NCBI GenBank assembly: GCA_021732085.1
Contig: JAKFVQ010000007.1
Span: 310,001 to 374,000 of the forward strand
Source of the DNA: Candidatus Obscuribacterales bacterium
GTDB taxonomy: Bacteria > Cyanobacteriota > Vampirovibrionia > Obscuribacterales > Obscuribacteraceae
Length of the DNA stretch: 64,000 nt
Reading direction: 5' to 3'
Notes under the pieces: model-generated
The model's database searches: none
What the model was told of the DNA's origin: nothing
The model's input: only the letters and a program-made list of their open reading frames with translations
In this document: positions 30,187-33,191 of the stretch, piece after piece
How positions within the stretch are numbered: position 1 is the stretch's first letter
Layout: each line of letters starts with the position of its first letter
Translations under genes and position numbers: made by a program

Positions 30187-30846
30187 CTAAACCGGTTTGC
30201 TTTCTAAATTTTCCAGACAACGCTCCAGCTCCTCGCAAGACTCTTGTAAGGTCGGAAGCAAGTTTTCTAATAGTTCTTTAGCACGGGCAAACTTGCGAGA
30301 GCTTAGTTGCTCAAGTGCAATCTCCAGATCGGCTGTGGCGGATTCGCAGGCGCCGATCAGTTGTTCGACCGAAGCCGTCGCCATTTCGATTTTGTGTTCG
30401 TCACCTTGAGTCTTGCAATTTTGGCAAAGCCCGAGAATATCAAAGCGGCTGTGCTTGTACTCATAACCTTTGCGATCGGCCACGGATTTTCCGAAGCCCC
30501 GAATCAAATCGTCCTCGAACTCAATCGTCAATCCGCACTTAACGCATATAAGATGATCGTGATCGTGTCCGGGCTCAGCAGCCTCGTAGCGTCGTCCGTG
30601 CTCACCAGCTAAGGCTTGAACCTGTCCCTGCATCGAAAGAGTATTCAAAGTTCGATAGACAGTTGAGAGACTTACCTTTAGTCCGTTGTCTCGGGCCTGC
30701 TTGTAGACTTCCGGGGCAGTCAAGTGCAGCCCTCTGGGCAATCCTTTTATAAAGGACTCGAGATTATCTTGCGCCGCCCCTTGTCGACTCCTTGCGCCAA
30801 GTTGTATCTCATCCATTCCTTCGTCCATGAGCCCTAATCCATCCAT
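30187..30846 (-). CDS. Fur-family transcriptional regulator with C-terminal helical extension
   Basis: A 219-residue metalloregulator. The N-terminal winged helix is recognised by LHLTAPEVYKQARDNG and SLSTVYRTLNTL. The dimerisation part has HDHDHLICVKCG (His94, His96, His98, Cys101, Cys104) and CQNC (Cys141, Cys144), forming the structural zinc and the regulatory metal site. Fur proteins normally end around residue 145-155; here about 70 extra residues form an acidic, Leu-rich helical tail (LEIALEQLSSRKFARAKELL) that looks like a coiled coil. Which metal or oxidant it senses (Fe, Zn, Mn, peroxide) cannot be told from sequence. Inverted repeats in its own upstream region suggest autoregulation. 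Confidence 0.92.
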   Translation of the reverse strand: MDGLGLMDEGMDEIQLGARSRQGAAQDNLESFIKGLPRGLHLTAPEVYKQARDNGLKVSLSTVYRTLNTLSMQGQVQALAGEHGRRYEAAEPGHDHDHLICVKCGLTIEFEDDLIRGFGKSVADRKGYEYKHSRFDILGLCQNCKTQGDEHKIEMATASVEQLIGACESATADLEIALEQLSSRKFARAKELLENLLPTLQESCEELERCLENLESKPV

Positions 30847-30917: not shown

Positions 30918-31124
30918 CATGTCTAAAAATCTTTCGTCCATATTATTGCAGATTTCACAAGCGAAGAGAACGGAAAGCGAGCGCCCAATAGTCGGCAGAC
31001 CTAACAGTGGACTGGTTTTTACTCACAAAAAGCATGCTTGTTAGCGACCCGGTAACAGATGTTCAAAATGAGCCGCGCTTAATTGACTCTCTCGTCGTCT
31101 CAAGCTATCTTATTGCAATCTTGT

Positions 31125-31139
31125 TGAGAATCATTCGCA
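31125..31139. promoter_or_regulatory. Fur-box-like 7-1-7 palindrome
   Basis: TGAGAAT-C-ATTCGCA matches the 7-1-7 inverted-repeat design of Fur-family boxes, with six of seven positions symmetric. It lies about 280 bases upstream of the Fur-family gene and about 65 bases before the hairpin cluster that begins at 31205, so it could control either a divergent RNA or the downstream gene. Confidence 0.4.
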
Positions 31140-31204
31140 CAAGAAAAGCTAGTGAATGACTATCCTTTTCGTCAGTGGTTCTCTCAATTGAATGCGACAA
31201 GTAC

Positions 31205-31347
31205 AGGCAAACACGACTCGCATCGTAAAAATTGCCTCTCGGGGCAAAGGGGTCGCAAGACCCCGAATCTTAATCAATAGAAGTCAACCTTCAAAAGTTG
31301 ATTTCTAAACGCTAAAGGGACTGAGGCTATCCAGTCCCTTTAGCGTT
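31205..31347 (+). ncRNA. Candidate structured RNA: cluster of consecutive hairpins
   Basis: About 140 bases hold five local stems: AGGCAA with TTGCCT (31205-31210 and 31232-31237) enclosing ACGA with TCGT; GGGGTC with GACCCC around a GCAA tetraloop (31249-31264); AAGTCAAC with GTTGATTT (31281-31304); and a perfect 16-bp stem at 31308-31323 and 31332-31347. TTGCC at 31232-31236 can alternatively pair with GGCAA at 31243-31247, so two folds exclude each other, as in switches or attenuators. The strand is assumed. No T run follows the last stem. I tried tmRNA, SRP, RNase P, 6S and common riboswitch motifs and found no convincing match. Confidence 0.45.
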
Positions 31348-31763
31348 GGTAGTGTAATTGAGCTAATTCGAGCCGCACTGCATTTGGTGAGTGGATGGTG
31401 ATACCGAATTTAGTATCATCACGGGAAGGAAAATTCGCATTTCCCTGACAAGGCAAGCGCAGATATGGGCTGCAAAGTTCCAGAAATCACTTAGCCCTGA
31501 ATGTACACTAGGCAATGAAATCTTCGGGAATCCGTTTGTCCTTTTGCATCAAGCCTTCGCTTTTGATACTCTTAGTTGTGCCTCTTCACCATGCTGCTTG
31601 GAAAGAGGCATTATTCGCTGACTATCAGTGATCAAGCTGGTTATTGTTAAAACAGTAAAGATTTCCAGTTTTTACTAGATTAAATTTCGGAACGAGTTAA
31701 TTTGGCAGCAAGCAAAGGCATAATCATATGTGGGGTGGACGCTGGAAACCATTGGCGGTGTAA

Positions 31764-33191
31764 GTGGCTAATAACGCAGATTTTGCCGGACCAGGGGGAG
31801 CGGTTGCGGAAGACGACAAGAATATGTCCTATCAGAACAAAGAACAGGTAGGCAGCCTAGAACAAGAGCTGGAAAGAACCGAACAGGATTTCCGCAAGGC
31901 AGCCGAATCGAACAATATGCAGCTCGTTATGCAGACACACAATCGCTTGTGTCAGCTCGTCGCGGCTTTGAGCGCGGCATGGTCGGGGACAGGCAATCCC
32001 ACAGTTTTTTCGCGATTCCACGTAGCCACTGAGCATTCTACAGGGCAGCAGAGTGCAGCAAGCACCACCCAAATGCCTGCAAGCCCACCGACTGGCGCAG
32101 ACGAGCTTGACATTGCAGCATTGGAAAAACAAGTCGCTGAACTAGCCTCAAAAATGCAAAAGTGTTTGGAAGCTGGCGATATGGATGGCATGTTGCAAGC
32201 AAATGAAAAGATGGGTGAGCTCAGCGAATTGATGGCGAAGGCGGAAGCTCGCCAGAAAGCGGCGAAACAGCAAGAAGCCAAGCCAACAGATGCGCAAGTG
32301 GCAAAAGGCGTATCATCCGGCTCTTGGGCCGCCGGCGATACAATGGCTCTTGCAAAGCAGCGCGCCGAAGAGCGCAAGAAACAGCAACGTCTTGCGGATT
32401 CATCCTTTGACCTTACCGTCGGAGAAGTAACTACTGACTTGCCGGCAGGTGCAGCGCCAGCTGCTGCAGCGCCAGCAGGTGCTGCATCTAGTGCGGATCA
32501 GTCCGGTGCCGCTTTCCTCAACGATCGCATGAAAGCGAAGATGAAGGAGACGGGCGACCAAAAACTTACAAAGAAATCGATGACTCAGGATCAGCTGCGC
32601 GAGAAGCTGGAACAATACAGCTTTTACGAGATCCTCTCCATCCCCTCAACAGCCTCATTTGAGGAATTACATCGCAGCTTCTTGCGAAAAATCAAAAAGC
32701 TAAATGCCAAGCTCTACAGCAAAGAGCTGGAAGACTGGCAATTTCAGGAGTTTGTGGCATCACTGTGTCTTGCGCATGATGTGCTGAAATTTCCTAACGC
32801 CCGCCTGCAATATGATCTTGTTCTCTTTGGACCAGGCGATGGCATGTCGCCAGAAACCACAGCAAAACAAAAGCTTATTCCTCTGCGAGAAATGGTGAAA
32901 TTTTCCACGCTGGTAAATGCAAAGGATTTAGCAGATGCCGTTGAGGAAACAAAAGGAACCGGAGATGAACGCGATTTGGGACGCGTGCTGGTCTCCAAAG
33001 CATTCCTCTCATCGGAGGAATTTGATTCCATTCTCTTTGCCCAAAAGCTTGTCTCTAAAGGGAAATTGACGGTTGCTCAATTCGAGCTTGCCATGCAAGA
33101 AATGCGCGAAAGCAATATTCCATTGCTCGATACTTTAATAGCATCGGAATGGATTCAGCCTCACGAAGTTTTCAGCGGCGAGCTAAATTAG
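31764..33191 (+). CDS. J-like protein without HPD, with coiled coil and GspE-N-like tail
   Basis: A 475-residue protein from GTG 31764 (GGCGGTG just upstream; ATG 31824 is an alternative). Residues about 1-220 are polar and helical with likely coiled coils (SLEQELERTEQDFRKAAESN; ELASKMQKCLEAGDMDGMLQ). An Ala/Pro linker follows. Residues about 283-352 (FYEILSIPSTASFEELHRSF) have the shape of a J domain, but the HPD triad needed to stimulate DnaK is absent. The C-terminal 110 residues carry two units like the GspE/PilB N-terminal domain (LGRVLVSKAFLSSEEFDSIL). No membrane segment. It is a plausible adaptor in a pilus/secretion or signalling complex; function is unknown. Confidence 0.8.
   Translation: MANNADFAGPGGAVAEDDKNMSYQNKEQVGSLEQELERTEQDFRKAAESNNMQLVMQTHNRLCQLVAALSAAWSGTGNPTVFSRFHVATEHSTGQQSAASTTQMPASPPTGADELDIAALEKQVAELASKMQKCLEAGDMDGMLQANEKMGELSELMAKAEARQKAAKQQEAKPTDAQVAKGVSSGSWAAGDTMALAKQRAEERKKQQRLADSSFDLTVGEVTTDLPAGAAPAAAAPAGAASSADQSGAAFLNDRMKAKMKETGDQKLTKKSMTQDQLREKLEQYSFYEILSIPSTASFEELHRSFLRKIKKLNAKLYSKELEDWQFQEFVASLCLAHDVLKFPNARLQYDLVLFGPGDGMSPETTAKQKLIPLREMVKFSTLVNAKDLADAVEETKGTGDERDLGRVLVSKAFLSSEEFDSILFAQKLVSKGKLTVAQFELAMQEMRESNIPLLDTLIASEWIQPHEVFSGELN

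Follow-up and report, generated by a model that had tools for sequence, protein, structure and literature searches.

In cyanobacteria, the small RNA (sRNA) IsaR1 is activated by iron stress and, among other iron proteins, targets the major ferredoxin Fed1 (PMC8136909, PMC11221513). In proteobacteria, RyhB and PrrF are Fur-repressed, trans-acting sRNAs that lower iron-containing proteins, and FsrA of B. subtilis and IsrR of S. aureus are also under Fur control; IsrR has Fur boxes at its start site and pairs with Shine-Dalgarno regions through C-rich loops (PMC9410917). Iron-sparing sRNAs share targets but not synteny or sequence, even among themselves (PMC9410917), and an independent sRNA family would therefore fit among them. 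No regulatory sRNA was found in the open-access literature for the Melainabacteria or Obscuribacterales, the non-photosynthetic sisters of the cyanobacteria. The locus described here, located in a 64,000-nt stretch of DNA from a Candidatus Obscuribacterales bacterium (hereafter the window), probably encodes an iron-saving switch of this known kind that is new in these groups.

Like IsaR1, the predicted RNA would be an iron-linked sRNA directed against ferredoxin, in a sister lineage. Unlike IsaR1, it is ~230 nt long and divergent from fur, and its supported targets consist of ferredoxin only, plus PreA in genus g23; it has no Rfam match and is set apart from IsaR1 by description. With RyhB and PrrF it would share Fur repression, action in trans and the turning down of an iron protein, but it belongs to another phylum and another locus and matches no Rfam model. 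Relatives in genera g23, g14, g10 and g9 resemble FsrA and IsrR in showing a CUCC or UUCC loop opposite AGGAG, whereas in the genus of the window the core pairing is away from the Shine-Dalgarno, 37-46 nt ahead of the start codon, and no sequence relation to either sRNA was detected.

The initial annotation had reported a hairpin cluster at 31205-31347, in the region of the window between a fur-family gene and a J-like gene (31764-33191; weak DnaJ-domain match). These hairpins are predicted to form the 3' half of the RNA divergent from fur (Table 1). The top NCBIfam and PDB matches of the fur product are Fur proteins, with NCBIfam scores below the cut-offs. A putative Fur box occupies the start site of the promoter, and the palindrome at 31124-31140 does end 65 bases before 31205, as had been claimed. 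A single Fur-box match within 64 kb is not rare by chance, so the evidence for this box is its recurrence across genera: the pair of promoter and Fur box, divergent from fur, is found in 11 genera of the family (Candidatus Obscuribacterales), with the candidate box at +1 in an unchanged position beside fur. The proximity of fur and the palindrome suggest that this promoter is under Fur control, with autoregulation of fur. The structured RNA is tied to this candidate box and is thus probably metal-controlled, in agreement with an earlier guess.

Table 1. Features of the predicted sRNA locus, in window coordinates.
Feature	Position	Strand	Remarks
fur-family regulator gene	30187..30846	-	Pfam FUR E 2.5e-23; divergent neighbour of predicted sRNA, likely controller
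sigma70-type promoter TTGACT-17-TATCTT	31083..31111	+	consensus scan; aligned promoter in relatives
Predicted sRNA, ~230 nt	about 31118..31350	+	ends predicted from the positions of promoter and last hairpin
Candidate Fur-box palindrome	31121..31142, core 31124-31140 TTGAGAATcATTCGCAC	+	at expected start site
Segment antisense to ferredoxin mRNA leader	31157..31208	+	core AAGUACAGGC 31199-31208
Hairpin AUGCGA/UCGCAU, loop exposing AAGUACAGGCAAAC	31192..31223	+	stem probability 0.76-0.89
Scaffold hairpin 2 (UUGCCU-CUCG-GGGCAA)	31232..31247	+	CCC-UUCG-GGG in G002
Scaffold hairpin 3, GNRA loop GCAA (GAAA in G002)	31249..31264	+	2/6 pairs compensated
Scaffold hairpin 4	31278..31307	+	G002 has a different hairpin at the same place
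Terminator-like 16-bp stem	31308..31347	+	G002 has the same inner 10 bp and loop

The genus of the window (g1) comprises its own genome (G000, where the window is C1:310001-374000) and G001, G002 and G003. One of these three others, G002, retains the whole interval from fur to the J-like gene. G003 retains fur, the promoter, the Fur box and AGTACAGGCAAA, followed by genes for a Flp-like pilin and a TadE protein, and G001 has no such Fur box beside fur. In the window and G002, as in four other genera (g9, g10, g14 and g23), the box is followed by a non-coding stretch, in most cases with a terminator-like hairpin at its end. The neighbours of Fur boxes elsewhere in G000 revealed no clear iron regulon; one perfect palindrome (L265, G000:C18:106741) lies 44 nt ahead of a 367-aa ORF, and another Fur-box palindrome (L268, G000:C11:113774) lies 31 nt ahead of a small cysteine-rich protein resembling thioredoxin-like ferredoxin. 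A second conserved block at 31617-31763, 85% identical to G002 and directly upstream of the J-like gene, is perhaps the promoter and leader of that gene.

The five stems of the hairpin cluster are present and fold far beyond chance: the segment 31199-31353 has a folding energy of -63.1 kcal/mol, compared with -33.9 +/- 3.8 on average for shuffled sequence (z = -7.65; 0 of 200 shuffles as good), and the whole predicted RNA (31120-31353) gives z = -7.2. Their elements also lie where the initial annotation had placed them, with AGGCAA at 31205-31210, TTGCC at 31232-31236, GGCAA at 31243-31247, the GCAA-tetraloop hairpin at 31249-31264 and the perfect 16-bp stem at 31308-31323/31332-31347. When the predicted RNA is aligned with that of G002, the hairpin series is kept and ten two-sided compensatory pairs appear, the type of change that had been named as potential support. 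Compensation is clearest in hairpin 3 (GGGGUC-GCAA-GACCCC vs GGAAUC-GAAA-GAUUCC in G002), where the GNRA loop is kept. Stable tetraloops occur on the plus strand only, which supports this as the RNA strand. The nearly invariant segment 31178-31222 is the most alike stretch between G000 and G002; the hairpin at 31192-31223 is nearly identical in stem and loop, and its loop has a mean unpaired probability of 0.74 in the predicted fold. The RNA appears to be non-coding, structured and terminator-ended, with a T tail after the terminator-like stem that is weak in the window, T-rich in G002 and good in the g23 relatives. No conserved start codon was found among small ORFs in the predicted RNA, and a 38-aa ORF starting at 31192 was rejected as coding, as its third codon is a stop in G002. 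On the minus strand, hairpin 2 (31247-31232) reads TTGCCCCGAGAGGCAA then TTTTTACGAT, terminator-like towards fur, at about chance expectation. One g10 genome carries a terminator unit, GAGCCCGACGAAAGTTGGGCTCGTTTCTTGATCTATATAGGTTTG, in tandem repeat upstream of fur (L098, L058).

In a covariance search in relatives, as had been proposed, a model of the hairpin cluster run across 146 genomes of the class gave strong matches in G000 and G002 only, and seven other genomes scored at chance-like E values of 0.002-0.09 per genome. The 3' scaffold is thus young or fast-evolving. Rfam 15 returned no match at the gathering threshold for the window and 15 relative loci, and chance scores only at relaxed thresholds, bearing out the earlier view that the element belongs to no known RNA family; a search of plasmid records also gave no match.

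The hairpins had further been likened to a riboswitch or attenuator, that is, a cis-acting leader of the downstream J-like gene toggling between two pairings of TTGCC, and we consider this very unlikely. Both pairings are possible on paper, and the upstream one is dominant (0.94) when the nascent RNA is truncated at 31240, but in the full RNA this AGGCAA/UUGCC pairing has a probability of ~0.04 against ~0.92 for the downstream pairing, and three of its six pairs are lost in G002. The competing fold is therefore neither conserved in G002 nor favored in the full RNA, leaving the riboswitch or attenuator proposal unsupported; the upstream pairing could be transient during transcription, as the truncated fold would suggest. 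A c-di-GMP-I riboswitch score does exist, far below the cut-off (11.5 vs 35 bits, E 8.4). Moreover, the J-like gene starts 416 nt past the terminator-like stem, the genes downstream of the same box differ in other genera, and the co-evolving match to ferredoxin would be left unexplained. This locus thus does not show the conserved pair of mutually exclusive folds that would mark the leader of a riboswitch- or attenuator-regulated gene.

The conserved, informative part of the predicted RNA is the segment antisense to ferredoxin mRNA, which indicates a trans-acting sRNA and lies mostly upstream of the originally reported span. This segment has 10 perfect pairs and further blocks with the leader of the genome's own 4Fe-4S ferredoxin (L205, G000:C5:50783-51004, minus), in which GCCUGUACUU, 37-46 nt ahead of the start codon and near the predicted 5' end of the mRNA, is complementary to AAGUACAGGC. 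The match is in register over 31157-31208 (about 50 nt), CAAUUGAGA included. Local alignment scores and co-folding were used in place of ViennaRNA duplexfold, because the latter allowed very long bulged duplexes. The local score of 49 compares with 25.4 +/- 5.0 for shuffles (0 of 100 as good) and with at most 38 for the leaders of 45 window ORFs, and the co-folding gain is -25.4 kcal/mol vs -7.1 +/- 2.9 for shuffles (0 of 100 as good). The sequence GCCTGTACTT occurs 20 times in G000 and G002 together, and the sole orthologous pair besides the locus itself is the ferredoxin leader. G001 is without both the box beside fur and the site in its ferredoxin leader.

In the g23, g14, g10 and g9 relatives, a GCAAACUCC-like loop directly follows the Fur box. 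The g23 and g14 genomes were searched for the complement of this loop by a start codon (AGGAGTTTGC..ATG), with the reversed pattern as a control; this control is blind to the general surplus of AGGAG ahead of ATG, so the numbers of matches carry little weight by themselves and it is orthologous recurrence that counts. Seven of the eight g23 genomes, and g14, have the recurring match at the start of a 74-aa 4Fe-4S ferredoxin; matches also recur at a response regulator and at PreA, likewise a 4Fe-4S protein. Computed pairing with the mRNA leaders of iron-containing proteins thus covers ferredoxin and, in g23, both PreA and ferredoxin. PreA (4Fe-4S dihydropyrimidine dehydrogenase subunit; L191, L182, L186, L189 and L184) starts AGGAGTTTGCAA(A)TG in g23, where the RNA may target it in addition to ferredoxin. 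The g23 response regulator (L187, L173, L174 and L176) starts AGGAGTTTGCCATG.

In g23, g14, g10 and g9, the matching RNA is predicted to pair over the ferredoxin Shine-Dalgarno and start codon, and flanking bases of RNA and target change together (UUUGG/CCAAA, CCAUCAG/CUGAUGG and AAAG/CUUU). The pairing sequences are specific to each group: UUUGGCAAACUCCU in g23, CCAUCAGCAAAC in g10, AAAGCAAACUCC in g9 and AUCUGUACAGGC in G013. Among seven genera, chosen after the matches were known, the true assignment of RNAs to ferredoxins ranks 1st of 5040 permutations by co-folding and 2nd of 5040 by local alignment; when three non-matching pilus-type genera are added, 5 of 100000 random assignments are equally good, and this ten-genus version softens the effect of that choice without removing it. 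In G014, G028 and G066 the box is present and the pairing is not significant. The ferredoxins of G005 (L192), G009 (L199) and G066 (L193) have the AGGAGTTTGC start, reading AGGAGTTTGCC/TAAATG, and searches of these genomes beside fur and near Fur boxes at other places detected no matching RNA. In genomes that lack the GCAAACTCC loop near fur, a search for this loop together with a Fur box at other places returned nothing convincing.

That g1, g11 and g16 have a common core close to GTACAGGC/GCCTGTAC at both places might alternatively mean that a transcription factor binds GTACAGGC as DNA in both the fur-side and the ferredoxin promoter, with no RNA pairing involved. We regard this as highly improbable, since the two copies are in opposite orientation, as RNA pairing needs, and the window match stays in register across about 50 nt; in four other genera the matching sequence is a different one and covers the Shine-Dalgarno and start codon, and the co-change of flanking bases between RNA and target also argues against a shared DNA site.

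The same promoter leads into a pilus operon in seven genera (g1, through G003, and g5, g11, g12, g13, g16 and g20), where it would drive a Flp-like pilin, with a TadE-like protein next in several (pilus-type loci upstream of fur: L043, L044, L046-L049, L051-L054 and L059). This arrangement suggests metal control of a tad-type pilus in these genera. Because the Pfam Flp model detected no pilin above its cut-off in any of nine genomes, the Flp-like assignment is based on sequence character and on the adjacent TadE protein. With a pilin and TadE behind the box even in the same-genus G003, and a 3' scaffold present in two species only, the locus could be seen as the decaying leader of a lost flp/tad operon, in which promoter and box persist and the hairpins are a terminator and functionless debris. 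This is unlikely in our judgment, although somewhat less so than the riboswitch or the shared DNA site: neither compensatory changes, nor the nearly invariant 31178-31222 between G000 and G002, nor co-evolving complementarity to ferredoxin would be expected of debris, and independent non-coding RNAs would arise from the same promoter in four further genera. A further and less certain twist is the pilus-operon state of sister lineages in which the leader itself pairs, as G013 and G018 carry the ferredoxin-pairing segment within the pilus leader. We tentatively propose that one Fur-controlled promoter has been wired, in different lineages, either to a flp/tad operon or to a stand-alone sRNA, with the pairing segment also residing in pilus leaders (G013, G018 and perhaps G003).

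In conclusion, computation identifies at this locus a promoter match, a conserved box, a structure with covariation and a co-evolving complementarity to ferredoxin. The best reading, in which we place fairly high confidence, is a Fur-repressed, trans-acting, iron-sparing sRNA that silences ferredoxin. We infer that the RNA is transcribed with approximately the ends given in Table 1, that Fur represses it with iron as the signal, and that ferredoxin is silenced. With an ample supply of the metal (most likely iron), Fur would occupy the +1 box and block the promoter, and as iron falls the ~230-nt RNA would be made. Its 5' half (31157-31208), partly displayed in the loop of the hairpin at 31192-31223, would then pair with the 4Fe-4S ferredoxin leader, leading to a translation block or mRNA decay and so saving iron, while the hairpin cluster at 31232-31347 would serve as a 3' scaffold for stabilization and termination.

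A Fur-linked sRNA against ferredoxin would parallel IsaR1, and it becomes testable whether RNA-based iron sparing is ancient in the phylum or has repeatedly arisen. The co-changing RNA and target sequences across genera would provide a natural record of seed evolution in an sRNA whose remaining parts get replaced. If the proposal for the pilus leaders is true, sRNA and pilus mRNA leader would be interchangeable states of one regulatory element, and iron, ferredoxin and pilus expression would be linked.
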